Positions 26,271-64,000 of a stretch of DNA of 64,000 nt are shown piece by piece. The translations under genes and the position numbers were made by a program. Below the pieces are notes generated by a model that was not told the origin of the DNA, made no database searches, and saw only the letters and a list, made by a program, of their open reading frames with translations. The stretch is taken from assembly GCA_023091665.1 (NCBI GenBank), contig JALJCQ010000028.1:744001-808000 (forward strand), written 5' to 3'. Position 1 is the stretch's first letter. Each line of letters opens with the position of its first letter. The DNA comes from Pythium myriotylum. Lineage: Eukaryota > Oomycota > Peronosporomycetes > Pythiales > Pythiaceae.

Positions 26271-26757
26271 GACCAGACGCTGGATCGTTTGTGGCTCGTG
26301 GTACCAGAGGGTAATCAAACGGCCGTCTGGTCTCCCTGTGTGGTGAGCGCATGTTTCTCCCCCGCAAGGAACGCGATCGACGCTGCTGTCGTCCTGATCT
26401 TATTCTACACGATGTTGAAGCTAATCCTGGTGGTCAGTATGAGGGCTGTTTTTCGTTCCTTTTCTACTATAATGTCGACGGGACGCCATTTCTGACTCGG
26501 GTGGATCTTGATTGCCCTGCCGATCATAGCCACCCGTAGAAAGCATCTGCACTGCATCTGTACTGCAGAATCAGAATCCAAGACGTCGCCTGTTCCACCA
26601 CACCTCTCTTACTGCATGCCTCTCTGCAGCCTTGGCGCCGTGCCATGCCGGTCGAAAACGCAGGCTGTGTGGCAAAACGGAAGGCTCTGTTTTCATTCCT
26701 GGCGCACGATTCGATTTGATAGGGTGCGTGTGTGAGCGCGCGCGGAGGAGAGAGAGA

Positions 26758-26766
<9 letters not shown>

Positions 26767-26811
<45 letters not shown>

Positions 26812-26838
26812 GGGGGGGGAGAGAGAGAGGGAGAGAGA
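26767..26838 (+). repeat. GA tract with 19-G run (representative of each unit)
   Basis: Polypurine tract 75 bases upstream of the first tRNA. The G run is 26801-26819. In later units the G run is 0, 0, 0, 0, 0, 13, 18, 12, 14, 15, 15, 15, 13, 13, 0, 0, 0 and 5 bases before tRNAs 2 to 19. Mirror-symmetric purine DNA of this kind can form triplex or G-quadruplex structures. Confidence 0.9.
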
Positions 26839-26912
26839 TGGAAGGGTCGAAGGATGGATGGCGGTTAGGGTTAAGGTTGTGTTGGGTTTGTGTTGCAGGG
26901 CGAATCTTTTGT

Positions 26913-26996
26913 GGTATCTTGCCCGAGTGGTCTAAGGGGGCGGACTTAAGATCCGCTAGACGTTCGTCTGCGTGGGTTCAAACCCCACAGGTACCA
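26913..26996 (+). tRNA. tRNA-Leu(UAA), array copy 1
   Basis: 84-nt class II tRNA reading UUA. Acceptor GGTATCT pairs with AGGTACC (one T-G wobble), discriminator A. The A box is in the D arm (GCCCGAGTGGTCTAAGG), with anticodon stem GCGGA/TCCGC and loop CTTAAGA giving anticodon TAA. The long variable arm is AGACG-TT-CGTCT, and the T arm GTGGG-TTCAAAC-CCCAC contains the B box. No intron and no encoded CCA beyond the acceptor end. All structural pairs are intact. Preceded by a 19-G run. Confidence 0.97.
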
Positions 26997-27100
26997 TGTT
27001 ATGCGCCAGAGAGAGGCCTCAACCTCTCTGCTCGCTCTCGTGGATGCATGTGTTTCTTGTCCCCCCTGGCCCGCGCTACCACCAGAGGCCCTTTATGCTC

Positions 27101-27129
27101 TTTTATGCTACACTCTTTTAGACTCTTTT
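27101..27129 (+). terminator. Triple T-run, first possible Pol III terminator after tRNA (representative)
   Basis: TTTT occurs at 27101, 27116 and 27126, each in a CTTTTA context, and these are the first T4 runs after the tRNA end at 26996. A 7-bp hairpin AGAGAGG/CCTCTCT lies at 27010-27029. The same arrangement is in every unit. Confidence 0.5.
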
Positions 27130-27179
27130 ACGCTTCTTTACCATCTTCGATGCATCCGTTACCCCTCGCCTTCACCCCC

Positions 27180-27245
27180 ACAGACACAGACACAGACACA
27201 GACGCAGACACAGACACAGACACAGACACAGACACAGACACAGAC
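27180..27245 (+). repeat. ACAGAC hexanucleotide tract (representative)
   Basis: Eleven 6-bp copies with one ACAGAC-to-GCAGAC change at the same place in all units. Other units have 10-12 copies; the unit at 49,680 also carries a private CAGGCA variant. Confidence 0.92.
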
Positions 27246-27605
27246 TCCGGTAGCGCACTCCGACATGCCTCCGCCATGGTTGTCTTTGTCTTCCACTCAG
27301 TGCACAGCCGTTCCGCCACCCTTCACTGTGTCTTGCACAACGAGCCTGTTGACAATCAATACGAAAACCGAGGCCACAAAACGGAGACTACTCTGTCGAG
27401 AGTCTTCTCTCAACACCTGCTAGTGGTCCGACCGCTCACCTCACAGACTACACCGGCTGTAACATAGATCCTTGCGTTAAGCGTGTAGGGAGGTGGACGA
27501 CGATTGACTCATCACATGTAAAATTGCCGCTGTTCTTGGCTTCGTTGGCGTTGATGCAGTGTCATTGTCGCGACTCGCGCTCTGTGTCGATCTCATGAAC
27601 ACGAA

Positions 27606-28580
27606 ATGAAACGTCTGAGAGACAGGTTACGCAGTCTTACCTGCACTCCTCACGTCTTCTCTGCTCGCCCGTCCGTTGTCTCATGGGAGCTGGAATGGGT
27701 GCGCCTTGGACTTTGTATAGCGCTCCAACGTCGTGAATGTGTAGCTCAAGCCCCCTATCTACCTGCTTGCTTTGAGGGTGTCGCGCGTGTTGCAAGTCGG
27801 TGGGGCGGTTCTATGGTTCCTAGCACTGTTTTTTGTTTGTTTGTTTGTTTTTGGTTTTGGTTTTGGTTTCATTCATGCGTTCTTTTCTTTTCTGCTCCTT
27901 CTTCTCCATTTTTTATAGTCAAATCTCGGGGACAGGCACCGATAACCCTAGAGAGGAGAAGCTTCCGCATGGGCAGCCCGTTTACGCTCGGGCGATGGAC
28001 TCTAGTCTGGCAAGATAACAGAGACGCGGGAAAGGCGAACACATTTCCCGTCAACACACTGACACCGTGCCGTGTAAAACTTTTCAACCCGAGTTCCCGG
28101 ATGAACGAAGGACGCAATTTCCACATTCGCCTAGTCCTCCACCGTTCTGTACCGTCCTGCACCGCTCTTCGCGCTGTAGGTGGATCGTTGGGCGTTGGGA
28201 TGTCGTCGATTGGGTCGATTGGGTCGATTGGGTCGATTGGGTCGATTGGGTCGATTGGGTCGATTGGGTCGATTGGGTCGATTGGGTCGATTGGGTCCCC
28301 TGTCGACACCGCAGATATCATCTACAAGGTAGAGGACAACCTTCTGTGTGTGTCCGACCAGACGCTGGATCGTTTGTGGCTCGTGGTACCAGAGGGTAAT
28401 CAAACGGCCGTCTGGTCTCCCTGTGTGGTGAGCGCATGTTTCTCCCCCGCAAGGAACGCGATCGACGCTGCTGTCATCCTGATCTTATTCTACACGATGT
28501 TGAAGCTAATCCTGGTGGTCAGTATGAGGGCTGTTTTTCGTTCCTTTTCTACTATAATGTCGACGGGACGCCATTTCTGA
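27606..28580 (+). other. Repeated ORF of the array unit (309-324 codons), coding status doubtful
   Basis: An ATG-initiated frame spanning the minisatellite, repeated in every unit at 27606, 29657, 31706, 33743, 35778, 37830, 39882, 41933, 43994, 46027, 48076, 50110, 52143, 54185, 56249, 58286, 60321 and 62373. It starts MKRLRDRLRSL, has a hydrophobic segment made by TTTG/TTTTGG repeats, an IGS tripeptide run from the minisatellite, then DTADIIYKVEDNLLCVSDQT, which looks like real protein. I recognise no domain. Opposite-strand and other-frame ORFs of 84-150 codons overlap it, the composition of the first half is poor, and frame preservation is automatic because the minisatellite is 9 bp. Either a non-coding repeat or the corpse of a gene. 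Confidence 0.25.
28206..28295 (+). repeat. 9-bp minisatellite TCGATTGGG, 10 copies (representative)
   Basis: Perfect tandem copies. Numbers in the 18 successive plus-strand units are 10, 10, 8, 8, 9, 7, 5, 9, 5, 5, 5, 5, 6, 8, 8, 8, 9 and 8. Copies look identical to one another within and between units, so turnover is fast. Confidence 0.95.
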
Positions 28581-28890: not shown

Positions 28891-28963
28891 GGAAGGGTCG
28901 AAGGATGGATGGCGGTTAGGGTTAAGGTTGTGTTGGGTTTGTGTTGCAGGGCGAATCTTTTGT

Positions 28964-29047
28964 GGTATCTTGCCCGAGTGGTCTAAGGGGGCGGACTTAA
29001 GATCCGCTAGACGTTCGTCTGCGTGGGTTCAAACCCCACAGGTACCA
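28964..29047 (+). tRNA. tRNA-Leu(UAA), array copy 2
   Basis: Identical to copy 1. 2051 bases after it; upstream GA tract has no G run; upstream unit carries CCATGCCGG and CAAAACGG. Confidence 0.96.
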
Positions 29048-30893
29048 TGTTATGCGCCAGAGAGAGGCCTCAACCTCTCTGCTCGCTCTCGTGGATGCAT
29101 GTGTTTCTTGTCCCCCCTGGCCCGCGCTACCACCAGAGGCCCTTTATGCTCTTTTATGCTACACTCTTTTAGACTCTTTTACGCTTCTTTACCATCTTCG
29201 ATGCATCCGTTACCCCTCGCCTTCACCCCCACAGACACAGACACAGACACAGACGCAGACACAGACACAGACACAGACACAGACACAGACACAGACTCCG
29301 GTAGCGCACTCCGACATGCCTCCGCCATGGTTGTCTTTGTCTTCCACTCAGTGCACAGCCGTTCCGCCACCCTTCACTGTGTCTTGCACAACGAGCCTGT
29401 TGACAATCAATACGAAAACCGAGGCCACAAAACGGAGACTACTCTGTCGAGAGTCTTCTCTCAACACCTGCTAGTGGTCCGACCGCTCACCTCACAGACT
29501 ACACCGGCTGTAACATAGATCCTTGCGTTAAGCGTGTAGGGAGGTGGACGACGATTGACTCATCACATGTAAAATTGCCGCTGTTCTTGGCTTCGTTGGC
29601 GTTGATGCAGTGTCATTGTCGCGACTCGCGCTCTGTGTCGATCTCATGAACACGAAATGAAACGTCTGAGAGACAGGTTACGCAGTCTTACCTGCACTCC
29701 TCACGTCTTCTCTGCTCGCCCGTCCGTTGTCTCATGGGAGCTGGAATGGGTGCGCCTTGGACTTTGTATAGCGCTCCAACGTCGTGAATGTGTAGCTCAA
29801 GCCCCCTATCTACCTGCTTGCTTTGAGGGTGTCGCGCGTGTTGCAAGTCGGTGGGGCGGTTCTATGGTTCCTAGCACTGTTTTTTGTTTGTTTGTTTGTT
29901 TTTGGTTTTGGTTTTGGTTTCATTCATGCGTTCTTTTCTTTTCTGCTCCTTCTTCTCCATTTTTTATAGTCAAATCTCGGGGACAGGCACCGATAACCCT
30001 AGAGAGGAGAAGCTTCCGCATGGGCAGCCCGTTTACGCTCGGGCGATGGACTCTAGTCTGGCAAGATAACAGAGACGCGGGAAAGGCGAACACATTTCCC
30101 GTCAACACACTGACACCGTGCCGTGTAAAACTTTTCAACCCGAGTTCCCGGATGAACGAAGGACGCAATTTCCACATTCGCCTAGTCCTCCACCGTTCTG
30201 TACCGTCCTGCACCGCTCTTCGCGCTGTAGGTGGATCGTTGGGCGTTGGGATGTCGTCGATTGGGTCGATTGGGTCGATTGGGTCGATTGGGTCGATTGG
30301 GTCGATTGGGTCGATTGGGTCGATTGGGTCGATTGGGTCGATTGGGTCCCCTGTCGACACCGCAGATATCATCTACAAGGTAGAGGACAACCTTCTGTGT
30401 GTGTCCGACCAGACGCTGGATCGTTTGTGGCTCGTGGTACCAGAGGGTAATCAAACGGCCGTCTGGTCTCCCTGTGTGGTGAGCGCATGTTTCTCCCCCG
30501 CAAGGAACGCGATCGACGCTGCTGTCATCCTGATCTTATTCTACACGATGTTGAAGCTAATCCTGGTGGTCAGTATGAGGGCTGTTTTTCGTTCCTTTTC
30601 TACTATAATGTCGACGGGACGCCATTTCTGACTCGGGTGGATCTTGATTGCCCTGCCGATCATAGCCACCCGTAGAAAGCATCTGCACTGCATCTGTACT
30701 GCAGAATCAGAATCCAAGACGTCGCCTGTTCCACCACACCTCTCTTACTGCATGCCTCTCTGCAGCCTTGGCGCCGTGCCATGGCGGTCGAAAACGCAGG
30801 CTGTGTGGCAAGACGGAAGGCTCTGTTTTCATTCCTGGCGCACGATTCGATTTGATAGGGTGCGTGTGTGAGCGCGCGCGGAGGAGAGAGAGA

Positions 30894-30939: not shown

Positions 30940-31018
30940 AGAGATGGAAGGGTCGAAGGATGGATGGCGGTTAGGGTTAAGGTTGTGTTGGGTTTGTGTT
31001 GCAGGGCGAATCTTTTGT

Positions 31019-31102
31019 GGTATCTTGCCCGAGTGGTCTAAGGGGGCGGACTTAAGATCCGCTAGACGTTCGTCTGCGTGGGTTCAAACCCCACAGGTAC
31101 CA
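31019..31102 (+). tRNA. tRNA-Leu(UAA), array copy 3
   Basis: Identical. Upstream unit switches to CCATGGCGG/CAAGACGG; GA tract ends GGGAGGGAGAG; following ACAGAC tract is short (10 copies). Confidence 0.96.
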
Positions 31103-32924
31103 TGTTATGCGCCAGAGAGAGGCCTCAACCTCTCTGCTCGCTCTCGTGGATGCATGTGTTTCTTGTCCCCCCTGGCCCGCGCTACCACCAGAGGCCCTTT
31201 ATGCTCTTTTATGCTACACTCTTTTAGACTCTTTTACGCTTCTTTACCATCTTCGATGCATCCGTTACCCCTCGCCTTCACCCCCACAGACACAGACACA
31301 GACGCAGACACAGACACAGACACAGACACAGACACAGACACAGACTCCGGTAGCGCACTCCGACATGCCTCCGCCATGGTTGTCTTTGTCTTCCACTCAG
31401 TGCACAGCCGTTCCGCCACCCTTCACTGTGTCTTGCACAACGAGCCTGTTGACAATCAATACGAAAACCGAGGCCACAAAACGGAGACTACTCTGTCGAG
31501 AGTCTTCTCTCAACACCTGCTAGTGGTCCGACCGCTCACCTCACAGACTACACCGGCTGTAACATAGATCCTTGCGTTAAGCGTGTAGGGAGGTGGACGA
31601 CGATTGACTCATCACATGTAAAATTGCCGCTGTTCTTGGCTTCGTTGGCGTTGATGCAGTGTCATTGTCGCGACTCGCGCTCTGTGTCGATCTCATGAAC
31701 ACGAAATGAAACGTCTGAGAGACAGGTTGCGCAGTCTTACCTGCACTCCTCACGTCTTCTCTGCTCGCCCGTCCGTTGTCTCATGGGAGCTGGAATGGGT
31801 GCGCCTTGGACTTTGTATAGCGCTCCAACGTCGTGAATGTGTAGCTCAAGCCCCCTATCTACCTGCTTGCTTTGAGGGTGTCGCGCGTGTTGCAAGTCGG
31901 TGGGGCGGTTCTATGGTTCCTAGCACTGTTTTTTGTTTGTTTGTTTGTTTTTGGTTTTGGTTTTGGTTTCATTCATGCGTTCTTTTCTTTTCTGCTCCTT
32001 CTTCTCCATTTTTTATAGTCAAATCTCGGGGACAGGCACCGATAACCCTAGAGAGGAGAAGCTTCCGCATGGGCAGCCCGTTTACGCTCGGGCGATGGAC
32101 TCTAGTCTGGCAAGATAACAGAGACGCGGGAAAGGCGAACACATTTCCCGTCAACACACTGACACCGTGCCGTGTAAAACTTTTCAACCCGAGTTCCCGG
32201 ATGAACGAAGGACGCAATTTCCACATTCGCCTAGTCCTCCACCGTTCTGTACCGTCCTGCACCGCTCTTCGCGCTGTAGGTGGATCGTTGGGCGTTGGGA
32301 TGTCGTCGATTGGGTCGATTGGGTCGATTGGGTCGATTGGGTCGATTGGGTCGATTGGGTCGATTGGGTCGATTGGGTCCCCTGTCGACACCGCAGATAT
32401 CATCTACAAGGTAGAGGACAACCTTCTGTGTGTGTCCGACCAGACGCTGGATCGTTTGTGGCTCGTGGTACCAGAGGGTAATCAAACGGCCGTCTGGTCT
32501 CCCTGTGTGGTGAGCGCATGTTTCTCCCCCGCAAGGAACGCGATCGACGCTGCTGTCATCCTGATCTTATTCTACACGATGTTGAAGCTAATCCTGGTGG
32601 TCAGTATGAGGGCTGTTTTTCGTTCCTTTTCTACTATAATGTCGACGGGACGCCATTTCTGACTCGGGTGGATCTTGATTGCCCTGCCGATCATAGCCAC
32701 CCGTAGAAAGCATCTGCACTGCATCTGTACTGCAGAATCAGAATCCAAGACGTCGCCTGTTCCACCACACCTCTCTTACTGCATGCCTCTCTGCAGCCTT
32801 GGCGCCGTGCCATGGCGGTCGAAAACGCAGGCTGTGTGGCAAGACGGAAGGCTCTGTTTTCATTCCTGGCGCACGATTCGATTTGATAGGGTGCGTGTGT
32901 GAGCGCGCGCGGAGGAGAGAGAGA

Positions 32925-32975: not shown

Positions 32976-33049
32976 TGGAAGGGTCGAAGGATGGATGGCG
33001 GTTAGGGTTAAGGTTGTGTTGGGTTTGTGTTGCAGGGCGAATCTTTTGT

Positions 33050-33133
33050 GGTATCTTGCCCGAGTGGTCTAAGGGGGCGGACTTAAGATCCGCTAGACGT
33101 TCGTCTGCGTGGGTTCAAACCCCACAGGTACCA
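33050..33133 (+). tRNA. tRNA-Leu(UAA), array copy 4
   Basis: Identical. Inside higher-order block A; counterpart of copy 16 at +24,543. Confidence 0.96.
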
Positions 33134-34961
33134 TGTTATGCGCCAGAGAGAGGCCTCAACCTCTCTGCTCGCTCTCGTGGATGCATGTGTTTCTTGTCCC
33201 CCCTGGCCCGCGCTACCACCAGAGGCCCTTTATGCTCTTTTATGCTACACTCTTTTAGACTCTTTTACGCTTCTTTACCATCTTCGATGCATCCGTTACC
33301 CCTCGCCTTCACCCCCACAGACACAGACACAGACACAGACGCAGACACAGACACAGACACAGACACAGACACAGACACAGACTCCGGTAGCGCACTCCGA
33401 CATGCCTCCGCCATGGTTGTCTTTGTCTTCCACTCAGTGCACAGCCGTTCCGCCACCCTTCACTGTGTCTTGCACAACGAGCCTGTTGACAATCAATACG
33501 AAAACCGAGGCCACAAAACGGAGACTACTCTGTCGAGAGTCTTCTCTCAACACCTGCTAGTGGTCCGACCGCTCACCTCACAGACTACACCGGCTGTAAC
33601 ATAGATCCTTGCGTTAAGCGTGTAGGGAGGTGGACGACGATTGACTCATCACATGTAAAATTGCCGCTGTTCTTGGCTTCGTTGGCGTTGATGCAGTGTC
33701 ATTGTCGCGACTCGCGCTCTGTGTCGATCTCATGAACACGAAATGAAACGTCTGAGAGACAGGTTGCGCAGTCTTACCTGCACTCCTCACGTCTTCTCTG
33801 CTCGCCCGTCCGTTGTCTCATGGGAGCTGGAATGGGTGCGCCTTGGACTTTGTATAGCGCTCCAACGTCGTGAATGTGTAGCTCAAGCCCCCTATCTACC
33901 TGCTTGCTTTGAGGGTGTCGCGCGTGTTGCAAGTCGGTGGGGCGGTTCTATGGTTCCTAGCACTGTTTTTTGTTTGTTTGTTTGTTTTTGGTTTTGGTTT
34001 TGGTTTCATTCATGCGTTCTTTTCTTTTCTGCTCCTTCTTCTCCATTTTTTATAGTCAAATCTCGGGGACAGGCACCGATAACCCTAGAGAGGAGAAGCT
34101 TCCGCATGGGCAGCCCGTTTACGCTCGGGCGATGGACTCTAGTCTGGCAAGATAACAGAGACGCGGGAAAGGCGAACACATTTCCCGTCAACACACTGAC
34201 ACCGTGCCGTGTAAAACTTTTCAACCCGAGTTCCCGGATGAACGAAGGACGCAATTTCCACATTCGCCTAGTCCTCCACCGTTCTGTACCGTCCTGCACC
34301 GCTCTTCGCGCTGTAGGTGGATCGTTGGGCGTTGGGATGTCGTCGATTGGGTCGATTGGGTCGATTGGGTCGATTGGGTCGATTGGGTCGATTGGGTCGA
34401 TTGGGTCGATTGGGTCCCCTGTCGACACCGCAGATATCATCTACAAGGTAGAGGACAACCTTCTGTGTGTGTCCGACCAGACGCTGGATCGTTTGTGGCT
34501 CGTGGTACCAGAGGGTAATCAAACGGCCGTCTGGTCTCCCTGTGTGGTGAGCGCATGTTTCTCCCCCGCAAGGAACGCGATCGACGCTGCTGTCATCCTG
34601 ATCTTATTCTACACGATGTTGAAGCTAATCCTGGTGGTCAGTATGAGGGCTGTTTTTCGTTCCTTTTCTACTATAATGTCGACGGGACGCCATTTCTGAC
34701 TCGGGTGGATCTTGATTGCCCTGCCGATCATAGCCACCCGTAGAAAGCATCTGCACTGCATCTGTACTGCAGAATCAGAATCCAAGACGTCGCCTGTTCC
34801 ACCACACCTCTCTTACTGCATGCCTCTCTGCAGCCTTGGCGCCGTGCCATGGCGGTCGAAAACGCAGGCTGTGTGGCAAGACGGAAGGCTCTGTTTTCAT
34901 TCCTGGCGCACGATTCGATTTGATAGGGTGCGTGTGTGAGCGCGCGCGGAGGAGAGAGAGA

Positions 34962-35010: not shown

Positions 35011-35084
35011 TGGAAGGGTCGAAGGATGGATGGCGGTTAGGGTTAAGGTTGTGTTGGGTTTGTGTTGCAGGGCGAATCTTTTGT

Positions 35085-35168
35085 GGTATCTTGCCCGAGT
35101 GGTCTAAGGGGGCGGACTTAAGATCCGCTAGACGTTCGTCTGCGTGGGTTCAAACCCCACAGGTACCA
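35085..35168 (+). tRNA. tRNA-Leu(UAA), array copy 5
   Basis: Identical. Block A; downstream flank has TATACTACAC where most units have TATGCTACAC, shared only with copy 17. Confidence 0.96.
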
Positions 35169-37005
35169 TGTTATGCGCCAGAGAGAGGCCTCAACCTCTC
35201 TGCTCGCTCTCGTGGATGCATGTGTTTCTTGTCCCCCCTGGCCCGCGCTACCACCAGAGGCCCTTTATGCTCTTTTATACTACACTCTTTTAGACTCTTT
35301 TACGCTTCTTTACCATCTTCGATGCATCCGTTACCCCTCGCCTTCACCCCCACAGACACAGACACAGACACAGACGCAGACACAGACACAGACACAGACA
35401 CAGACACAGACACAGACTCCGGTAGCGCACTCCGACATGCCTCCGCCATGGTTGTCTTTGTCTTCCACTCAGTGCACAGCCGTTCCGCCACCCTTCACTG
35501 TGTCTTGCACAACGAGCCTGTTGACAATCAATACGAAAACCGAGGCCACAAAACGGAGACTACTCTGTCGAGAGTCTTCTCTCAACACCTGCTAGTGGTC
35601 CGACCGCTCACCTCACAGACTACACCGGCTGTAACATAGATCCTTGCGTTAAGCGTGTAGGGAGGTGGACGACGATTGACTCATCACATGTAAAATTGCC
35701 GCTGTTCTTGGCTTCGTTGGCGTTGATGCAGTGTCATTGTCGCGACTCGCGCTCTGTGTCGATCTCATGAACACGAAATGAAACGTCTGAGAGACAGGTT
35801 GCGCAGTCTTACCTGCACTCCTCACGTCTTCTCTGCTCGCCCGTCCGTTGTCTCATGGGAGCTGGAATGGGTGCGCCTTGGACTTTGTATAGCGCTCCAA
35901 CGTCGTGAATGTGTAGCTCAAGCCCCCTATCTACCTGCTTGCTTTGAGGGTGTCGCGCGTGTTGCAAGTCGGTGGGGCGGTTCTATGGTTCCTAGCACTG
36001 TTTTTTGTTTGTTTGTTTGTTTTTGGTTTTGGTTTTGGTTTCATTCATGCGTTCTTTTCTTTTCTGCTCCTTCTTCTCCATTTTTTATAGTCAAATCTCG
36101 GGGACAGGCACCGATAACCCTAGAGAGGAGAAGCTTCCGCATGGGCAGCCCGTTTACGCTCGGGCGATGGACTCTAGTCTGGCAAGATAACAGAGACGCG
36201 GGAAAGGCGAACACATTTCCCGTCAACACACTGACACCGTGCCGTGTAAAACTTTTCAACCCGAGTTCCCGGATGAACGAAGGACGCAATTTCCACATTC
36301 GCCTAGTCCTCCACCGTTCTGTACCGTCCTGCACCGCTCTTCGCGCTGTAGGTGGATCGTTGGGCGTTGGGATGTCGTCGATTGGGTCGATTGGGTCGAT
36401 TGGGTCGATTGGGTCGATTGGGTCGATTGGGTCGATTGGGTCGATTGGGTCGATTGGGTCCCCTGTCGACACCGCAGATATCATCTACAAGGTAGAGGAC
36501 AACCTTCTGTGTGTGTCCGACCAGACGCTGGATCGTTTGTGGCTCGTGGTACCAGAGGGTAATCAAACGGCCGTCTGGTCTCCCTGTGTGGTGAGCGCAT
36601 GTTTCTCCCCCGCAAGGAACGCGATCGACGCTGCTGTCATCCTGATCTTATTCTACACGATGTTGAAGCTAATCCTGGTGGTCAGTATGAGGGCTGTTTT
36701 TCGTTCCTTTTCTACTATAATGTCGACGGGACGCCATTTCTGACTCGGATGGATCTTGATTGCCCTGCCGATCATAGCCACCCGTAGAAAGCATCTGCAC
36801 TGCATCTGTACTGCAGAATCAGAATCCAAGACGTCGCCTGTTCCACCACACCTCTCTTACTGCATGCCTCTCTGCAGCCTTGGCGCCGTGCCATGGCGGT
36901 CGAAAACGCAGGCTGTGTGGCAAGACGGAAGGCTCTGTTTTCATTCCTGGCGCACGATTCGATTTGATAGGGTGCGTGTGTGAGCGCGCGCGGAGGAGAG
37001 AGAGA

Positions 37006-37066: not shown

Positions 37067-37136
37067 AGGGTCGAAGGATGGATGGCGGTTAGGGTTAAGG
37101 TTGTGTTGGGTTTGTGTTGCAGGGCGAATCTTTTGT

Positions 37137-37220
37137 GGTATCTTGCCCGAGTGGTCTAAGGGGGCGGACTTAAGATCCGCTAGACGTTCGTCTGCGTGGG
37201 TTCAAACCCCACAGGTACCA
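37137..37220 (+). tRNA. tRNA-Leu(UAA), array copy 6
   Basis: Identical. Block A; longest pure GA tract upstream; upstream unit has the CGGATGG marker near 36748. Confidence 0.96.
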
Positions 37221-39093: not shown

Positions 39094-39188
39094 GGAGAGA
39101 GAGAGGGAGAGAGATGGAAGGGTCGAAGGATGGATGGCGGTTAGGGTTAAGGTTGTGTTGGGTTTGTGTTGCAGGGCGAATCTTTTGT

Positions 39189-39272
39189 GGTATCTTGCCC
39201 GAGTGGTCTAAGGGGGCGGACTTAAGATCCGCTAGACGTTCGTCTGCGTGGGTTCAAACCCCACAGGTACCA
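39189..39272 (+). tRNA. tRNA-Leu(UAA), array copy 7
   Basis: Identical. First unit after block A to regain a G run (13 G); markers CCATGCCGG/CAAGACGG. Confidence 0.96.
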
Positions 39273-51352: not shown

Positions 51353-51449
51353 GGGGAGAGAGAGAGGGAGAGAGATGGAAGGGTCGAAGGATGGATGGCG
51401 GTTAGGGTTAAGGTTGTGTTGGGTTTGTGTTGCAGGGCGAATCTTTTGT

Positions 51450-51533
51450 GGTATCTTGCCCGAGTGGTCTAAGGGGGCGGACTTAAGATCCGCTAGACGT
51501 TCGTCTGCGTGGGTTCAAACCCCACAGGTACCA
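51450..51533 (+). tRNA. tRNA-Leu(UAA), array copy 13
   Basis: Identical. Upstream unit carries the one-base deletion; 15-G run. Confidence 0.96.
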
Positions 51534-53342
51534 TGTTATGCGCCAGAGAGAGGCCTCAACCTCTCTGCTCGCTCTCGTGGATGCATGTGTTTCTTGTCCC
51601 CCCTGGCCCGCGCTACCACCAGAGGCCCTTTATGCTCTTTTATGCTACACTCTTTTAGACTCTTTTACGCTTCTTTACCATCTTCGATGCATCCGTTACC
51701 CCTCGCCTTCACCCCCACAGACACAGACACAGACACAGACGCAGACACAGACACAGACACAGACACAGACACAGACACAGACTCCGGTAGCGCACTCCGA
51801 CATGCCTCCGCCATGGTTGTCTTTGTCTTCCACTCAGTGCACAGCCGTTCCGCCACCCTTCACTGTGTCTTGCACAACGAGCCTGTTGACAATCAATACG
51901 AAAACCGAGGCCACAAAACGGAGACTACTCTGTCGAGAGTCTTCTCTCAACACCTGCTAGTGGTCCGACCGCTCACCTCACAGACTACACCGGCTGTAAC
52001 ATAGATCCTTGCGTTAAGCGTGTAGGGAGGTGGACGACGATTGACTCATCACATGTAAAATTGCCGCTGTTCTTGGCTTCGTTGGCGTTGATGCAGTGTC
52101 ATTGTCGCGACTCGCGCTCTGTGTCGATCTCATGAACACGAAATGAAACGTCTGAGAGACAGGTTGCGCAGTCTTACCTGCACTCCTCACGTCTTCTCTG
52201 CTCGCCCGTCCGTTGTCTCATGGGAGCTGGAATGGGTGCGCCTTGGACTTTGTATAGCGCTCCAACGTCGTGAATGTGTAGCTCAAGCCCCCTATCTACC
52301 TGCTTGCTTTGAGGGTGTCGCGCGTGTTGCAAGTCGGTGGGGCGGTTCTATGGTTCCTAGCACTGTTTTTTGTTTGTTTGTTTGTTTTTGGTTTTGGTTT
52401 TGGTTTCATTCATGCGTTCTTTTCTTTTCTGCTCCTTCTTCTCCATTTTTTATAGTCAAATCTCGGGGACAGGCACCGATAACCCTAGAGAGGAGAAGCT
52501 TCCGCATGGGCAGCCCGTTTACGCTCGGGCGATGGACTCTAGTCTGGCAAGATAACAGAGACGCGGGAAAGGCGAACACATTTCCCGTCAACACACTGAC
52601 ACCGTGCCGTGTAAAACTTTTCAACCCGAGTTCCCGGATGAACGAAGGACGCAATTTCCACATTCGCCTAGTCCTCCACCGTTCTGTACCGTCCTGCACC
52701 GCTCTTCGCGCTGTAGGTGGATCGTTGGGCGTTGGGATGTCGTCGATTGGGTCGATTGGGTCGATTGGGTCGATTGGGTCGATTGGGTCGATTGGGTCCC
52801 CTGTCGACACCGCAGATATCATCTACAAGGTAGAGGACAACCTTCTGTGTGTGTCCGACCAGACGCTGGATCGTTTGTGGCTCGTGGTACCAGAGGGTAA
52901 TCAAACGGCCGTCTGGTCTCCCTGTGTGGTGAGCGCATGTTTCTCCCCCGCAAGGAACGCGATCGACGCTGCTGTCATCCTGATCTTATTCTACACGATG
53001 TTGAAGCTAATCCTGGTGGTCAGTATGAGGGCTGTTTTTCGTTCCTTTTCTACTATAATGTCGACGGGACGCCATTTCTGACTCGGGTGGATCTTGATTG
53101 CCTGCCGATCATAGCCACCCGTAGAAAGCATCTGCACTGCATCTGTACTGCAGAATCAGAATCCAAGACGTCGCCTGTTCCACCACACCTCTCTTACTGC
53201 ATGCCTCTCTGCAGCCTTGGCGCCGTGCCATGCCGGTCGAAAACGCAGGCTGTGTGGCAAGACGGAAGGCTCTGTTTTCATTCCTGGCGCACGATTCGAT
53301 TTGATAGGGTGCGTGTGTGAGCGCGCGCGGAGGAGAGAGAGA

Positions 53343-53396: not shown

Positions 53397-53491
53397 GGAG
53401 AGAGAGAGGGAGAGAGATGGAAGGGTCGAAGGATGGATGGCGGTTAGGGTTAAGGTTGTGTTGGGTTTGTGTTGCAGGGCGAATCTTTTGT

Positions 53492-53575
53492 GGTATCTTG
53501 CCCGAGTGGTCTAAGGGGGCGGACTTAAGATCCGCTAGACGTTCGTCTGCGTGGGTTCAAACCCCACAGGTACCA
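53492..53575 (+). tRNA. tRNA-Leu(UAA), array copy 14
   Basis: Identical. Upstream unit has the deletion together with CAAGACGG, and six minisatellite copies; 13-G run. Confidence 0.96.
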
Positions 53576-55402
53576 TGTTATGCGCCAGAGAGAGGCCTCA
53601 ACCTCTCTGCTCGCTCTCGTGGATGCATGTGTTTCTTGTCCCCCCTGGCCCGCGCTACCACCAGAGGCCCTTTATGCTCTTTTATGCTACACTCTTTTAG
53701 ACTCTTTTACGCTTCTTTACCATCTTCGATGCATCCGTTACCCCTCGCCTTCACCCCCACAGACACAGACACAGACACAGACGCAGACACAGACACAGAC
53801 ACAGACACAGACACAGACACAGACTCCGGTAGCGCACTCCGACATGCCTCCGCCATGGTTGTCTTTGTCTTCCACTCAGTGCACAGCCGTTCCGCCACCC
53901 TTCACTGTGTCTTGCACAACGAGCCTGTTGACAATCAATACGAAAACCGAGGCCACAAAACGGAGACTACTCTGTCGAGAGTCTTCTCTCAACACCTGCT
54001 AGTGGTCCGACCGCTCACCTCACAGACTACACCGGCTGTAACATAGATCCTTGCGTTAAGCGTGTAGGGAGGTGGACGACGATTGACTCATCACATGTAA
54101 AATTGCCGCTGTTCTTGGCTTCGTTGGCGTTGATGCAGTGTCATTGTCGCGACTCGCGCTCTGTGTCGATCTCATGAACACGAAATGAAACGTCTGAGAG
54201 ACAGGTTGCGCAGTCTTACCTGCACTCCTCACGTCTTCTCTGCTCGCCCGTCCGTTGTCTCATGGGAGCTGGAATGGGTGCGCCTTGGACTTTGTATAGC
54301 GCTCCAACGTCGTGAATGTGTAGCTCAAGCCCCCTATCTACCTGCTTGCTTTGAGGGTGTCGCGCGTGTTGCAAGTCGGTGGGGCGGTTCTATGGTTCCT
54401 AGCACTGTTTTTTGTTTGTTTGTTTGTTTTTGGTTTTGGTTTTGGTTTCATTCATGCGTTCTTTTCTTTTCTGCTCCTTCTTCTCCATTTTTTATAGTCA
54501 AATCTCGGGGACAGGCACCGATAACCCTAGAGAGGAGAAGCTTCCGCATGGGCAGCCCGTTTACGCTCGGGCGATGGACTCTAGTCTGGCAAGATAACAG
54601 AGACGCGGGAAAGGCGAACACATTTCCCGTCAACACACTGACACCGTGCCGTGTAAAACTTTTCAACCCGAGTTCCCGGATGAACGAAGGACGCAATTTC
54701 CACATTCGCCTAGTCCTCCACCGTTCTGTACCGTCCTGCACCGCTCTTCGCGCTGTAGGTGGATCGTTGGGCGTTGGGATGTCGTCGATTGGGTCGATTG
54801 GGTCGATTGGGTCGATTGGGTCGATTGGGTCGATTGGGTCGATTGGGTCGATTGGGTCCCCTGTCGACACCGCAGATATCATCTACAAGGTAGAGGACAA
54901 CCTTCTGTGTGTGTCCGACCAGACGCTGGATCGTTTGTGGCTCGTGGTACCAGAGGGTAATCAAACGGCCGTCTGGTCTCCCTGTGTGGTGAGCGCATGT
55001 TTCTCCCCCGCAAGGAACGCGATCGACGCTGCTGTCATCCTGATCTTATTCTACACGATGTTGAAGCTAATCCTGGTGGTCAGTATGAGGGCTGTTTTTC
55101 GTTCCTTTTCTACTATAATGTCGACGGGACGCCATTTCTGACTCGGGTGGATCTTGATTGCCTGCCGATCATAGCCACCCGTAGAAAGCATCTGCACTGC
55201 ATCTGTACTGCAGAATCAGAATCCAAGACGTCGCCTGTTCCACCACACCTCTCTTACTGCATGCCTCTCTGCAGCCTTGGCGCCGTGCCATGCCGGTCGA
55301 AAACGCAGGCTGTGTGGCAAAACGGAAGGCTCTGTTTTCATTCCTGGCGCACGATTCGATTTGATAGGGTGCGTGTGTGAGCGCGCGCGGAGGAGAGAGA
55401 GA

Positions 55403-55454: not shown

Positions 55455-55549
55455 GGAGAGAGAGAGGGAGAGAGATGGAAGGGTCGAAGGATGGATGGCG
55501 GTTAGGGTTAAGGTTGTGTTGGGTTTGTGTTGCAGGGCGAATCTTTTGT

Positions 55550-55633
55550 GGTATCTTGCCCGAGTGGTCTAAGGGGGCGGACTTAAGATCCGCTAGACGT
55601 TCGTCTGCGTGGGTTCAAACCCCACAGGTACCA
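55550..55633 (+). tRNA. tRNA-Leu(UAA), array copy 15
   Basis: Identical. Followed by the longest ACAGAC tract (12 copies), where block B begins. Confidence 0.96.
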
Positions 55634-57467
55634 TGTTATGCGCCAGAGAGAGGCCTCAACCTCTCTGCTCGCTCTCGTGGATGCATGTGTTTCTTGTCCC
55701 CCCTGGCCCGCGCTACCACCAGAGGCCCTTTATGCTCTTTTATGCTACACTCTTTTAGACTCTTTTACGCTTCTTTACCATCTTCGATGCATCCGTTACC
55801 CCTCGCCTTCACCCCCACAGACACAGACACAGACACAGACGCAGACACAGACACAGACACAGACACAGACACAGACACAGACACAGACTCCGGTAGCGCA
55901 CTCCGACATGCCTCCGCCATGGTTGTCTTTGTCTTCCACTCAGTGCACAGCCGTTCCGCCACCCTTCACTGTGTCTTGCACAACGAGCCTGTTGACAATC
56001 AATACGAAAACCGAGGCCACAAAACGGAGACTACTCTGTCGAGAGTCTTCTCTCAACACCTGCTAGTGGTCCGACCGCTCACCTCACAGACTACACCGGC
56101 TGTAACATAGATCCTTGCGTTAAGCGTGTAGGGAGGTGGACGACGATTGACTCATCACATGTAAAATTGCCGCTGTTCTTGGCTTCGTTGGCGTTGATGC
56201 AGTGTCATTGTCGCGACTCGCGCTCTGTGTCGATCTCATGAACACGAAATGAAACGTCTGAGAGACAGGTTGCGCAGTCTTACCTGCACTCCTCACGTCT
56301 TCTCTGCTCGCCCGTCCGTTGTCTCATGGGAGCTGGAATGGGTGCGCCTTGGACTTTGTATAGCGCTCCAACGTCGTGAATGTGTAGCTCAAGCCCCCTA
56401 TCTACCTGCTTGCTTTGAGGGTGTCGCGCGTGTTGCAAGTCGGTGGGGCGGTTCTATGGTTCCTAGCACTGTTTTTTGTTTGTTTGTTTGTTTTTGGTTT
56501 TGGTTTTGGTTTCATTCATGCGTTCTTTTCTTTTCTGCTCCTTCTTCTCCATTTTTTATAGTCAAATCTCGGGGACAGGCACCGATAACCCTAGAGAGGA
56601 GAAGCTTCCGCATGGGCAGCCCGTTTACGCTCGGGCGATGGACTCTAGTCTGGCAAGATAACAGAGACGCGGGAAAGGCGAACACATTTCCCGTCAACAC
56701 ACTGACACCGTGCCGTGTAAAACTTTTCAACCCGAGTTCCCGGATGAACGAAGGACGCAATTTCCACATTCGCCTAGTCCTCCACCGTTCTGTACCGTCC
56801 TGCACCGCTCTTCGCGCTGTAGGTGGATCGTTGGGCGTTGGGATGTCGTCGATTGGGTCGATTGGGTCGATTGGGTCGATTGGGTCGATTGGGTCGATTG
56901 GGTCGATTGGGTCGATTGGGTCCCCTGTCGACACCGCAGATATCATCTACAAGGTAGAGGACAACCTTCTGTGTGTGTCCGACCAGACGCTGGATCGTTT
57001 GTGGCTCGTGGTACCAGAGGGTAATCAAACGGCCGTCTGGTCTCCCTGTGTGGTGAGCGCATGTTTCTCCCCCGCAAGGAACGCGATCGACGCTGCTGTC
57101 ATCCTGATCTTATTCTACACGATGTTGAAGCTAATCCTGGTGGTCAGTATGAGGGCTGTTTTTCGTTCCTTTTCTACTATAATGTCGACGGGACGCCATT
57201 TCTGACTCGGGTGGATCTTGATTGCCCTGCCGATCATAGCCACCCGTAGAAAGCATCTGCACTGCATCTGTACTGCAGAATCAGAATCCAAGACGTCGCC
57301 TGTTCCACCACACCTCTCTTACTGCATGCCTCTCTGCAGCCTTGGCGCCGTGCCATGGCGGTCGAAAACGCAGGCTGTGTGGCAAGACGGAAGGCTCTGT
57401 TTTCATTCCTGGCGCACGATTCGATTTGATAGGGTGCGTGTGTGAGCGCGCGCGGAGGAGAGAGAGA

Positions 57468-57518: not shown

Positions 57519-57592
57519 TGGAAGGGTCGAAGGATGGATGGCGGTTAGGGTTAAGGTTGTGTTGGGTTTGTGTTGCAGGGCGAATCTTTTGT

Positions 57593-57676
57593 GGTATCTT
57601 GCCCGAGTGGTCTAAGGGGGCGGACTTAAGATCCGCTAGACGTTCGTCTGCGTGGGTTCAAACCCCACAGGTACCA
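57593..57676 (+). tRNA. tRNA-Leu(UAA), array copy 16
   Basis: Identical. Block B counterpart of copy 4; no G run. Confidence 0.96.
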
Positions 57677-59504
57677 TGTTATGCGCCAGAGAGAGGCCTC
57701 AACCTCTCTGCTCGCTCTCGTGGATGCATGTGTTTCTTGTCCCCCCTGGCCCGCGCTACCACCAGAGGCCCTTTATGCTCTTTTATGCTACACTCTTTTA
57801 GACTCTTTTACGCTTCTTTACCATCTTCGATGCATCCGTTACCCCTCGCCTTCACCCCCACAGACACAGACACAGACACAGACGCAGACACAGACACAGA
57901 CACAGACACAGACACAGACACAGACTCCGGTAGCGCACTCCGACATGCCTCCGCCATGGTTGTCTTTGTCTTCCACTCAGTGCACAGCCGTTCCGCCACC
58001 CTTCACTGTGTCTTGCACAACGAGCCTGTTGACAATCAATACGAAAACCGAGGCCACAAAACGGAGACTACTCTGTCGAGAGTCTTCTCTCAACACCTGC
58101 TAGTGGTCCGACCGCTCACCTCACAGACTACACCGGCTGTAACATAGATCCTTGCGTTAAGCGTGTAGGGAGGTGGACGACGATTGACTCATCACATGTA
58201 AAATTGCCGCTGTTCTTGGCTTCGTTGGCGTTGATGCAGTGTCATTGTCGCGACTCGCGCTCTGTGTCGATCTCATGAACACGAAATGAAACGTCTGAGA
58301 GACAGGTTGCGCAGTCTTACCTGCACTCCTCACGTCTTCTCTGCTCGCCCGTCCGTTGTCTCATGGGAGCTGGAATGGGTGCGCCTTGGACTTTGTATAG
58401 CGCTCCAACGTCGTGAATGTGTAGCTCAAGCCCCCTATCTACCTGCTTGCTTTGAGGGTGTCGCGCGTGTTGCAAGTCGGTGGGGCGGTTCTATGGTTCC
58501 TAGCACTGTTTTTTGTTTGTTTGTTTGTTTTTGGTTTTGGTTTTGGTTTCATTCATGCGTTCTTTTCTTTTCTGCTCCTTCTTCTCCATTTTTTATAGTC
58601 AAATCTCGGGGACAGGCACCGATAACCCTAGAGAGGAGAAGCTTCCGCATGGGCAGCCCGTTTACGCTCGGGCGATGGACTCTAGTCTGGCAAGATAACA
58701 GAGACGCGGGAAAGGCGAACACATTTCCCGTCAACACACTGACACCGTGCCGTGTAAAACTTTTCAACCCGAGTTCCCGGATGAACGAAGGACGCAATTT
58801 CCACATTCGCCTAGTCCTCCACCGTTCTGTACCGTCCTGCACCGCTCTTCGCGCTGTAGGTGGATCGTTGGGCGTTGGGATGTCGTCGATTGGGTCGATT
58901 GGGTCGATTGGGTCGATTGGGTCGATTGGGTCGATTGGGTCGATTGGGTCGATTGGGTCCCCTGTCGACACCGCAGATATCATCTACAAGGTAGAGGACA
59001 ACCTTCTGTGTGTGTCCGACCAGACGCTGGATCGTTTGTGGCTCGTGGTACCAGAGGGTAATCAAACGGCCGTCTGGTCTCCCTGTGTGGTGAGCGCATG
59101 TTTCTCCCCCGCAAGGAACGCGATCGACGCTGCTGTCATCCTGATCTTATTCTACACGATGTTGAAGCTAATCCTGGTGGTCAGTATGAGGGCTGTTTTT
59201 CGTTCCTTTTCTACTATAATGTCGACGGGACGCCATTTCTGACTCGGGTGGATCTTGATTGCCCTGCCGATCATAGCCACCCGTAGAAAGCATCTGCACT
59301 GCATCTGTACTGCAGAATCAGAATCCAAGACGTCGCCTGTTCCACCACACCTCTCTTACTGCATGCCTCTCTGCAGCCTTGGCGCCGTGCCATGGCGGTC
59401 GAAAACGCAGGCTGTGTGGCAAGACGGAAGGCTCTGTTTTCATTCCTGGCGCACGATTCGATTTGATAGGGTGCGTGTGTGAGCGCGCGCGGAGGAGAGA
59501 GAGA

Positions 59505-59553: not shown

Positions 59554-59627
59554 TGGAAGGGTCGAAGGATGGATGGCGGTTAGGGTTAAGGTTGTGTTGG
59601 GTTTGTGTTGCAGGGCGAATCTTTTGT

Positions 59628-59711
59628 GGTATCTTGCCCGAGTGGTCTAAGGGGGCGGACTTAAGATCCGCTAGACGTTCGTCTGCGTGGGTTCAAACCC
59701 CACAGGTACCA
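59628..59711 (+). tRNA. tRNA-Leu(UAA), array copy 17
   Basis: Identical. Block B counterpart of copy 5, sharing its TATACTACAC flank. Confidence 0.96.
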
Positions 59712-61548
59712 TGTTATGCGCCAGAGAGAGGCCTCAACCTCTCTGCTCGCTCTCGTGGATGCATGTGTTTCTTGTCCCCCCTGGCCCGCGCTACCACCAG
59801 AGGCCCTTTATGCTCTTTTATACTACACTCTTTTAGACTCTTTTACGCTTCTTTACCATCTTCGATGCATCCGTTACCCCTCGCCTTCACCCCCACAGAC
59901 ACAGACACAGACACAGACGCAGACACAGACACAGACACAGACACAGACACAGACACAGACTCCGGTAGCGCACTCCGACATGCCTCCGCCATGGTTGTCT
60001 TTGTCTTCCACTCAGTGCACAGCCGTTCCGCCACCCTTCACTGTGTCTTGCACAACGAGCCTGTTGACAATCAATACGAAAACCGAGGCCACAAAACGGA
60101 GACTACTCTGTCGAGAGTCTTCTCTCAACACCTGCTAGTGGTCCGACCGCTCACCTCACAGACTACACCGGCTGTAACATAGATCCTTGCGTTAAGCGTG
60201 TAGGGAGGTGGACGACGATTGACTCATCACATGTAAAATTGCCGCTGTTCTTGGCTTCGTTGGCGTTGATGCAGTGTCATTGTCGCGACTCGCGCTCTGT
60301 GTCGATCTCATGAACACGAAATGAAACGTCTGAGAGACAGGTTGCGCAGTCTTACCTGCACTCCTCACGTCTTCTCTGCTCGCCCGTCCGTTGTCTCATG
60401 GGAGCTGGAATGGGTGCGCCTTGGACTTTGTATAGCGCTCCAACGTCGTGAATGTGTAGCTCAAGCCCCCTATCTACCTGCTTGCTTTGAGGGTGTCGCG
60501 CGTGTTGCAAGTCGGTGGGGCGGTTCTATGGTTCCTAGCACTGTTTTTTGTTTGTTTGTTTGTTTTTGGTTTTGGTTTTGGTTTCATTCATGCGTTCTTT
60601 TCTTTTCTGCTCCTTCTTCTCCATTTTTTATAGTCAAATCTCGGGGACAGGCACCGATAACCCTAGAGAGGAGAAGCTTCCGCATGGGCAGCCCGTTTAC
60701 GCTCGGGCGATGGACTCTAGTCTGGCAAGATAACAGAGACGCGGGAAAGGCGAACACATTTCCCGTCAACACACTGACACCGTGCCGTGTAAAACTTTTC
60801 AACCCGAGTTCCCGGATGAACGAAGGACGCAATTTCCACATTCGCCTAGTCCTCCACCGTTCTGTACCGTCCTGCACCGCTCTTCGCGCTGTAGGTGGAT
60901 CGTTGGGCGTTGGGATGTCGTCGATTGGGTCGATTGGGTCGATTGGGTCGATTGGGTCGATTGGGTCGATTGGGTCGATTGGGTCGATTGGGTCGATTGG
61001 GTCCCCTGTCGACACCGCAGATATCATCTACAAGGTAGAGGACAACCTTCTGTGTGTGTCCGACCAGACGCTGGATCGTTTGTGGCTCGTGGTACCAGAG
61101 GGTAATCAAACGGCCGTCTGGTCTCCCTGTGTGGTGAGCGCATGTTTCTCCCCCGCAAGGAACGCGATCGACGCTGCTGTCATCCTGATCTTATTCTACA
61201 CGATGTTGAAGCTAATCCTGGTGGTCAGTATGAGGGCTGTTTTTCGTTCCTTTTCTACTATAATGTCGACGGGACGCCATTTCTGACTCGGATGGATCTT
61301 GATTGCCCTGCCGATCATAGCCACCCGTAGAAAGCATCTGCACTGCATCTGTACTGCAGAATCAGAATCCAAGACGTCGCCTGTTCCACCACACCTCTCT
61401 TACTGCATGCCTCTCTGCAGCCTTGGCGCCGTGCCATGGCGGTCGAAAACGCAGGCTGTGTGGCAAGACGGAAGGCTCTGTTTTCATTCCTGGCGCACGA
61501 TTCGATTTGATAGGGTGCGTGTGTGAGCGCGCGCGGAGGAGAGAGAGA

Positions 61549-61609
<61 letters not shown>

Positions 61610-61679
61610 AGGGTCGAAGGATGGATGGCGGTTAGGGTTAAGGTTGTGTTGGGTTTGTGTTGCAGGGCGAATCTTTTGT

Positions 61680-61763
61680 GGTATCTTGCCCGAGTGGTCT
61701 AAGGGGGCGGACTTAAGATCCGCTAGACGTTCGTCTGCGTGGGTTCAAACCCCACAGGTACCA
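61680..61763 (+). tRNA. tRNA-Leu(UAA), array copy 18
   Basis: Identical. Block B counterpart of copy 6, with the CGGATGG marker near 61291 upstream. Confidence 0.96.
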
Positions 61764-63713
61764 TGTTATGCGCCAGAGAGAGGCCTCAACCTCTCTGCTC
61801 GCTCTCGTGGATGCATGTGTTTCTTGTCCCCCCTGGCCCGCGCTACCACCAGAGGCCCTTTATGCTCTTTTATGCTACACTCTTTTAGACTCTTTTACGC
61901 TTCTTTACCATCTTCGATGCATCCGTTACCCCTCGCCTTCACCCCCACAGACACAGACACAGACACAGACGCAGACACAGACACAGACACAGACACAGAC
62001 ACAGACACAGACTCCGGTAGCGCACTCCGACATGCCTCCGCCATGGTTGTCTTTGTCTTCCACTCAGTGCACAGCCGTTCCGCCACCCTTCACTGTGTCT
62101 TGCACAACGAGCCTGTTGACAATCAATACGAAAACCGAGGCCACAAAACGGAGACTACTCTGTCGAGAGTCTTCTCTCAACACCTGCTAGTGGTCCGACC
62201 GCTCACCTCACAGACTACACCGGCTGTAACATAGATCCTTGCGTTAAGCGTGTAGGGAGGTGGACGACGATTGACTCATCACATGTAAAATTGCCGCTGT
62301 TCTTGGCTTCGTTGGCGTTGATGCAGTGTCATTGTCGCGACTCGCGCTCTGTGTCGATCTCATGAACACGAAATGAAACGTCTGAGAGACAGGTTGCGCA
62401 GTCTTACCTGCACTCCTCACGTCTTCTCTGCTCGCCCGTCCGTTGTCTCATGGGAGCTGGAATGGGTGCGCCTTGGACTTTGTATAGCGCTCCAACGTCG
62501 TGAATGTGTAGCTCAAGCCCCCTATCTACCTGCTTGCTTTGAGGGTGTCGCGCGTGTTGCAAGTCGGTGGGGCGGTTCTATGGTTCCTAGCACTGTTTTT
62601 TGTTTGTTTGTTTGTTTTTGGTTTTGGTTTTGGTTTCATTCATGCGTTCTTTTCTTTTCTGCTCCTTCTTCTCCATTTTTTATAGTCAAATCTCGGGGAC
62701 AGGCACCGATAACCCTAGAGAGGAGAAGCTTCCGCATGGGCAGCCCGTTTACGCTCGGGCGATGGACTCTAGTCTGGCAAGATAACAGAGACGCGGGAAA
62801 GGCGAACACATTTCCCGTCAACACACTGACACCGTGCCGTGTAAAACTTTTCAACCCGAGTTCCCGGATGAACGAAGGACGCAATTTCCACATTCGCCTA
62901 GTCCTCCACCGTTCTGTACCGTCCTGCACCGCTCTTCGCGCTGTAGGTGGATCGTTGGGCGTTGGGATGTCGTCGATTGGGTCGATTGGGTCGATTGGGT
63001 CGATTGGGTCGATTGGGTCGATTGGGTCGATTGGGTCGATTGGGTCCCCTGTCGACACCGCAGATATCATCTACAAGGTAGAGGACAACCTTCTGTGTGT
63101 GTCCGACCAGACGCTGGATCGTTTGTGGCTCGTGGTACCAGAGGGTAATCAAACGGCCGTCTGGTCTCCCTGTGTGGTGAGCGCATGTTTCTCCCCCGCA
63201 AGGAACGCGATCGACGCTGCTGTCATCCTGATCTTATTCTACACGATGTTGAAGCTAATCCTGGTGGTCAGTATGAGGGCTGTTTTTCGTTCCTTTTCTA
63301 CTATAATGTCGACGGGACGCCATTTCTGACTCGGGTGGATCTTGATTGCCTGCCGATCATAGCCACCCGTAGAAAGCATCTGCACTGCATCTGTACTGCA
63401 GAATCAGAATCCAAGACGTCGCCTGTTCCACCACACCTCTCTTACTGCATGCCTCTCTGCAGCCTTGGCGCCGTGCCATGCCGGTCGAAAACGCAGGCTG
63501 TGTGGCAAGACGGAAGGCTCTGTTTTCATTCCTGGCGCACGATTCGATTTGATAGGGTGCGTGTGTGAGCGCGCGCGGAGGAGAGAGAGATGTGTGTGAG
63601 GGAGAGAGAGAGAGAGAGGGGGAGAGAGAGAGGGAGAGATGGAAGGGTCGAAGGATGGATGGCGGTTAGGGTTAAGGTTGTGTTGGGTTTGTGTTGCAGG
63701 GCGAATCTTTTGT

Positions 63714-63797
63714 GGTATCTTGCCCGAGTGGTCTAAGGGGGCGGACTTAAGATCCGCTAGACGTTCGTCTGCGTGGGTTCAAACCCCACAGGTACCA
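63714..63797 (+). tRNA. tRNA-Leu(UAA), array copy 19
   Basis: Identical. Upstream tract is the shortest, with only 5 G; upstream unit has the one-base deletion. The unit is cut by the window end in its ACAGAC tract. Confidence 0.96.
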
Positions 63798-64000
63798 TGT
63801 TATGCGCCAGAGAGAGGCCTCAACCTCTCTGCTCGCTCTCGTGGATGCATGTGTTTCTTGTCCCCCCTGGCCCGCGCTACCACCAGAGGCCCTTTATGCT
63901 CTTTTATGCTACACTCTTTTAGACTCTTTTACGCTTCTTTACCATCTTCGATGCATCCGTTACCCCTCGCCTTCACCCCCACAGACACAGACACAGACAC

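Follow-up and report, generated by a model that had tools for sequence, protein, structure and literature searches.

What kind of locus repeats a single leucine transfer RNA (tRNA) gene, unit after unit, up to the end of a contig of the oomycete Pythium myriotylum, and does its position there carry any meaning? The stretch that raises this question is a window of 64,000 nucleotides (C28:744001-808000) on contig C28 (839,850 bp), which belongs to an assembly of 58.7 Mb in 55 contigs. As argued below, the locus is very probably an ordinary isotype-specific oomycete tandem tRNA array that was homogenised by unequal exchange and capped only secondarily by a telomere. Within the window ARAGORN found 19 tRNA-Leu(UAA) genes, all on the + strand and one per unit; the Rfam model RF00005 recovered the identical set (each gene with 55.6 bits against a cut-off of 29), and by exact matching the 19 copies are letter-for-letter identical across 86 bp. 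The 18 units that are complete in the window measure 2,025-2,087 bp (about 2.04 kb) and contain three length-variable short tandem repeats (STRs) each, i.e. a GA/G-rich tract, a CACAGA tract and the 9-mer GTCGATTGG. The sequence-only reading is confirmed, which had described 19 identical tRNA-Leu(UAA) genes on a tandem unit of about 2 kb with three such repeats, and a chance origin of this pattern is excluded. Protein similarity agrees with an oomycete host as well: for one protein of the window, the best named matches belong to Pythium, Nothophytophthora, Peronospora and Phytophthora. The array, its tRNA genes (each found with both ARAGORN and RF00005) and the STRs of the first unit are located as follows:

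26271..64000, + strand: head-to-tail array of units of about 2.04 kb, cut by the end of the window and running on to C28:838671
26912..26997, + strand: tRNA-Leu(UAA) copy 1
28963..29048, + strand: tRNA-Leu(UAA) copy 2
31018..31103, + strand: tRNA-Leu(UAA) copy 3
33049..33134, + strand: tRNA-Leu(UAA) copy 4
35084..35169, + strand: tRNA-Leu(UAA) copy 5
37136..37221, + strand: tRNA-Leu(UAA) copy 6
39188..39273, + strand: tRNA-Leu(UAA) copy 7
41245..41330, + strand: tRNA-Leu(UAA) copy 8
43300..43385, + strand: tRNA-Leu(UAA) copy 9
45333..45418, + strand: tRNA-Leu(UAA) copy 10
47388..47473, + strand: tRNA-Leu(UAA) copy 11
49416..49501, + strand: tRNA-Leu(UAA) copy 12
51449..51534, + strand: tRNA-Leu(UAA) copy 13
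53491..53576, + strand: tRNA-Leu(UAA) copy 14
55549..55634, + strand: tRNA-Leu(UAA) copy 15
57592..57677, + strand: tRNA-Leu(UAA) copy 16
59627..59712, + strand: tRNA-Leu(UAA) copy 17
61679..61764, + strand: tRNA-Leu(UAA) copy 18
63713..63798, + strand: tRNA-Leu(UAA) copy 19
26728..26838, + strand: GA/G-rich STR of the first unit, 5' of the tRNA gene; one such tract per unit
27179..27245, + strand: CACAGA STR of the first unit, 3' of the tRNA gene
28205..28297, + strand: 9-bp STR of the first unit, with 5-10 copies per unit

When contig C28 was read to its end, the whole array proved to contain 25 intact tRNA-Leu(UAA) genes (exact match) and 25 complete units of 2,025-2,089 bp (median 2,044 bp). 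With the inserts counted in, it spans 68,401 bp, from 26271 to 94671 in window coordinates extended beyond the window. The head-to-tail units do start at 26271, as had been proposed from the sequence alone, but the left edge adds a further piece that this start leaves out:

24977..26270, - strand: inverted partial unit, head-to-head with the array, without the tRNA gene and the CACAGA part

This piece is about 470 bp short of a full unit, and 1,256 bp of it are 100% complementary to unit sequence further in. Towards the other end, two tRNA-Leu(UAA) copies among the last units are broken by inserts. Beyond the second insert there is a single further complete unit, whose gene is intact, and then a truncated unit ending at C28:838671 (94671 in extended coordinates), which runs into about two copies of a 0.43-kb subtelomeric repeat and then into a TTTAGGG tract; the last intact tRNA gene and the start of this tract are 2,541 bp apart. 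This telomeric end lies outside the window and was out of view for the sequence-only reading.

The phenomenon as such is known in oomycetes, since tandem tRNA arrays have been published for Phytophthora infestans and two of them, Leu(AAG) and Thr-Trp-Ser, have counterparts here (Matson et al. 2022, PMC9584435). The available part of that report gives 11,056 tRNA genes for P. infestans, of which about 64% belong to single-gene tandem arrays and 36% to arrays whose unit is a dimer or trimer; about two-thirds of the tRNA families lie on a single chromosome. Its examples include tRNA-Cys (271 copies, unit of 513 nt) and a Thr-Trp-Ser array, as well as an array of near-identical tRNA-Leu(AAG) copies in which variants are often found close to one edge. 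The earlier statement that no oomycete equivalent had been described does not hold in view of these arrays, which are found throughout P. infestans. The array on C28 resembles them in its single isotype, its near-identical copies and the grouping of some variants near an edge; it differs in unit size (513 nt and 850 nt are named for P. infestans, against about 2.04 kb with three STRs here), and its junction with a telomere and its insert-split tRNA copies are not reported for P. infestans in the available part of PMC9584435. In the open-access subset of the literature, we found no report of an oomycete tRNA array joined to a telomere. The likeness to the tRNA arrays of Entamoeba, drawn before, is correct in form, as both consist of tandem units with STRs (Tawari et al. 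2007, PMC2652664). According to the accessible sections of that paper, units in Entamoeba carry up to five tRNA genes, some of them with 5S RNA, and length-variable STRs lie between the arrayed genes of E. histolytica and E. dispar, as they do here with three per unit. A chromosome-end location was proposed for the Entamoeba arrays, for which telomere-like sequences were not found, whereas C28 ends in TTTAGGG; moreover, the two lineages are unrelated.

The array is also not alone in its own genome. A search with RF00005, in which 63 of 3,081 tRNA candidates were scored, found tRNA arrays on contigs C11 and C12. From the pieces read, the C11 array contains Thr(CGT), Ser(GCT) and, on the opposite strand, Trp(CCA); Lys(TTT) is found on C12, Lys(CTT) on C15 and Glu(CTC) on C16. 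C1 holds regular B-box series of Leu(AAG), Arg(ACG) and Val(TAC), with one copy of each series read, and C3, C17 and C43 carry more B-box series that are array-like by their regular spacing (ARAGORN gave no call on the one piece read from C3). Genome-wide, GGTTCRANTCC occurs 930 times (210 times for the reversed control) and GGTTCGATCCC 333 times (4 times for the control), and solitary B-box matches are also present among the matches listed. The Thr(CGT)/Trp(CCA)/Ser(GCT) combination and the tRNA-Leu(AAG) series are shared with P. infestans, as far as the available text of PMC9584435 describes them; the finding of tandem tRNA arrays in that species is hereby extended to a further oomycete, and at least one mixed unit (Thr/Trp/Ser) agrees in composition between the two. 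In the Lys(CTT) array (C15:8676-88110, unit 909 bp) we observed five recurring intervals of 8,265-8,273 bp, as if one large insert had been amplified along with the units, and long intervals are also seen in the series on C1, C3, C11, C12 and C43. The Glu(CTC) array (C16, 651-8925) starts inside the first kilobase of its contig; in contrast to the uniform tRNA-Leu(UAA) copies, 3 of the 8 Glu(CTC) copies in the first 10 kb of C16 have a CCC run within the gene shortened by one C; sequencing errors at homopolymers could, however, produce the same difference.

How alike are the units, and what keeps them alike? There are 27 unit intervals on C28, 25 of which were aligned, the two with inserts being left out. 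In this alignment 169 columns vary, only 10 of them as gap-free substitutions; the variation between units is mostly one of STR length. An exact block of 7,190 bp occurs a second time 24,543 bp (12 units) away, which makes units 3-4 equal to units 15-16; a block copy of this kind is the footprint of unequal exchange. Unequal sister-chromatid exchange and gene conversion would keep the copies alike, so that a variant would spread as a block; 4 of the 10 substitution columns are confined to the edge-near units 0-1 or 21-23. We also considered that the assembler may have multiplied a few units or misjoined the array to the telomere. This would fit the one exact 7.2-kb block repeat, and contig C2 (161,195 bp, mitochondrial by its tRNA set) does seem to be concatenated, with inverted repeats and a period near 72 kb. 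However, only 2 pairs of identical units were found among the 25 compared, the rest differing by STR length or single bases, the genome contains several independent arrays of other isotypes, and for P. infestans the available part of PMC9584435 states that tRNA gene numbers were checked and confirmed by read depth. An assembly artefact is therefore very improbable.

The homogeneity of the units also determines what can be said about selection. The sequence-only reading had noted that the tRNA is intact while other parts of the unit vary; this is true of the STR lengths, but apart from these the unit varies hardly more than the tRNA does (10 gap-free substitution columns among the 25 units), and for this reason selection on the tRNA cannot be judged from the array. 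Scaling the 10 columns over an assumed 1,900 bp, 0.45 substitutions are expected in the 86-bp tRNA, and the probability of finding none is 0.64. The invariance of the tRNA is thus no evidence of selection.

Besides the tRNA gene, the unit contains a long open frame:

27555..28580, + strand: stop-free frame of 341 codons across the unit junction, repeated unit by unit; coding status doubtful

This allows the array to be read the other way round, as a protein-coding macrosatellite whose actual gene would be the 341-codon frame, with the tRNA merely carried along. With the STRs collapsed, the longest frame still measures 314 codons, somewhat more than expected by chance in simulations (reached in 4 of 2000 with a first-order and 23 of 2000 with a second-order Markov model), and the 9-bp STR preserves the frame. 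Yet Pfam gave no match for the 341-codon frame, its three protein matches among 7,992 scored candidates are weak and cover only 13-15% of the query, and two of the three substitution sites among 27 frames change the residue. Judging by these data the frame is probably non-coding, and a protein-coding array is hardly to be expected at all.

We therefore return to the array as a series of tRNA genes. Each 2-kb unit would consist of one RNA polymerase III (Pol III) gene for a cytosolic tRNA-Leu(UAA) and a spacer with three slippage-prone STRs; each gene is presumably transcribed singly by Pol III, and the array would supply the dosage of one tRNA. An internal B-box, GGTTCAAACC, is present in each of the tRNA-Leu(UAA) genes. 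With a 201-bp query all 29 genome matches fell on C28, and so did all 28 matches of a unit spacer query. A pattern of anticodon plus B-box gave 27 matches, 26 of them on C28, where they represent all 25 intact genes plus the 3' portion of a broken one; the remaining match, on C11, was assessed by its matched letters only. A looser pattern gave 113 matches; among 100 of these, 26 lie on C28, 39 in the Lys(CTT) array on C15, 9 on C2, 5 on C17, 17 on C43 and 4 are scattered. Neither with the 201-bp query nor with the two patterns (the looser one among those 100 matches) was a second nuclear tRNA-Leu(UAA) locus found, and because of this the array is probably the only tRNA-Leu(UAA) supply of the cell, although a diverged or intron-bearing second gene may exist.

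Several observations weigh against the picture of a homogenised, transcribed and solitary tRNA array. Six of the 10 substitution columns are not confined to an edge. The survey with the looser pattern covers 100 of its 113 matches. The copy number does not match the demand, TTA making up 4 of 320 leucine codons in five frames of the window (a small sample). Finally, no run of four T follows the tRNA-Leu(UAA) gene until 103 nt 3' of it. In the sampled genes for Glu, Lys(CTT), Thr, Ser, Trp, Arg and Val such a run lies within 1-5 nt; for Lys(TTT) and Leu(AAG) it is not nearby either (with only 23 nt of flank in the case of Leu(AAG)). Instead, in the stretch 26998-27100 of the window a short hairpin, AGAGAGG/CCTCTCT, is located 13-32 nt 3' of the gene. 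As a terminator this hairpin was rejected, the folds being not exceptional (z-scores of -1.58 and -0.82).

Does the location next to the telomere matter? We read 20 of the 55 left contig ends (those of C5 and C10 being partly N) and the right end of C28. TTTAGGG tracts are present at the latter and at 7 of the 20 left ends, and at least 150 bp of the 0.43-kb repeat were found in 7 of the 20 left ends as well, namely in that of C12, which starts without telomere repeats, and in six of the seven ends that begin with them. A genome search with this subtelomeric repeat gave at least 46 matches, among 40 of 113 candidates scored; all those listed lie within about 40 kb of an end of C3, C4, C11, C12, C13 or C28 (near the right ends in the case of C3, C11 and C12), often spaced at a period of 3,577 bp. 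As far as sequence can tell, the junction of array and telomere on C28 looks like a true chromosome end. It may have formed by a break inside a unit, repaired by joining to the subtelomeric repeat at its TTTAGGG-rich start. As the outer end is truncated and joined to the subtelomeric repeat and the telomere, the array sits where the subtelomere of the chromosome would be.

One might thus regard the array as a functional subtelomere, its tRNA units forming end-protecting or boundary chromatin as once proposed for Entamoeba. All 25 compared units contain GGTTAGGGTTAAGG, which resembles the telomere repeat, and only about two copies of the 0.43-kb repeat separate the array from the telomere, several other ends having longer blocks with the 3,577-bp period. 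Against this, the chromosome end of C28 has a normal TTTAGGG telomere, and other arrays are internal on their contigs, e.g. those on C11 (1.61-1.71 of 2.77 Mb) and C12 (0.82-0.86 of 4.19 Mb) and the three series on C1 (at 0.56, 1.75 and 2.79 of 3.65 Mb). No tRNA gene was found within the outer 10 kb of any of the seven further telomeric ends read, and the array unit matched none of the 20 left ends. A telomeric role of tRNA arrays in general is therefore not supported and was rejected for the ends read, and for the array itself we consider such a function improbable. We rate just as low the more specific proposal that the tRNA-Leu(UAA) array took the place of the ordinary satellite and now serves as the working subtelomere of this chromosome; its Pol III-bound units would be a boundary beside the telomere, and telomeric recombination would drive the number of copies at the sole tRNA-Leu(UAA) locus found. 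If it were true, it would tie the decoding of UUA codons to the maintenance of a chromosome end, and the idea once put forward for Entamoeba, that tRNA arrays lie at chromosome ends, would become testable in an organism with normal telomeres. The adjacency of array and telomere is more likely to be secondary and without special function. Still, that the only nuclear tRNA-Leu(UAA) locus found is placed directly at a telomere is the less expected part of our finding. Sequences beside telomeres can be expected to undergo frequent loss, gain and silencing.

Both inserts in the outer units interrupt a tRNA gene. The first one measures 4,196 bp and lies in the D-arm region of its tRNA copy (C28:820153-824348; L010:2153-6348), with TAA on both sides and inverted ends. 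Its longest frame contains a Pfam DDE_Tnp_4 domain (E 4.2e-23), which we take to be typical of PIF/Harbinger elements. One other copy was found, with 97% identity over 267 bases (C12:1646399-1646665), and no tRNA is present in the flank read around it. The second insert, of about 8.9 kb (C28:826466-835360), starts at the TTAA of the anticodon loop of another tRNA copy, and beyond the insert the unit picks up again about 450 bp further along. It has a frame of 868 codons, for which Pfam gave no match; a 301-base piece of it has 4 genome matches, its own site included, and similar DNA is found on C13, C17 and, weaker, C16. A targeting of tRNA genes by these elements was considered and rejected: both inserts lie in a tRNA, yet target-like sites of the unit also fall there (1 of 3 TTAA and 3 of 29 TAA/TTA sites). 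Because of these site counts and the copy on C12 without a tRNA in the flank read, we do not claim targeting. The two broken copies resemble the spare-copy situation discussed for elements that target small RNA genes. Dada DNA transposons likewise sit inside a tRNA-Leu gene of a multicopy family, but with duplications of 6-7 bp according to the available part of PMC3706591, whereas the first insert on C28 is flanked by TAA on either side and has a frame with a DDE_Tnp_4 domain.

Mobile-element-like frames are also located just left of the array (window 21123-24884). They contain a PIF1 helicase domain and a Helitron-like N domain, both above the cut-off, and matches to phage integrase and GCR1_C that remain below it. 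Further away, in the window at 1423-7500, a frame of 1,422 codons resembles an ABC transporter by eye; next to it, most of its first 380 codons are present once more.

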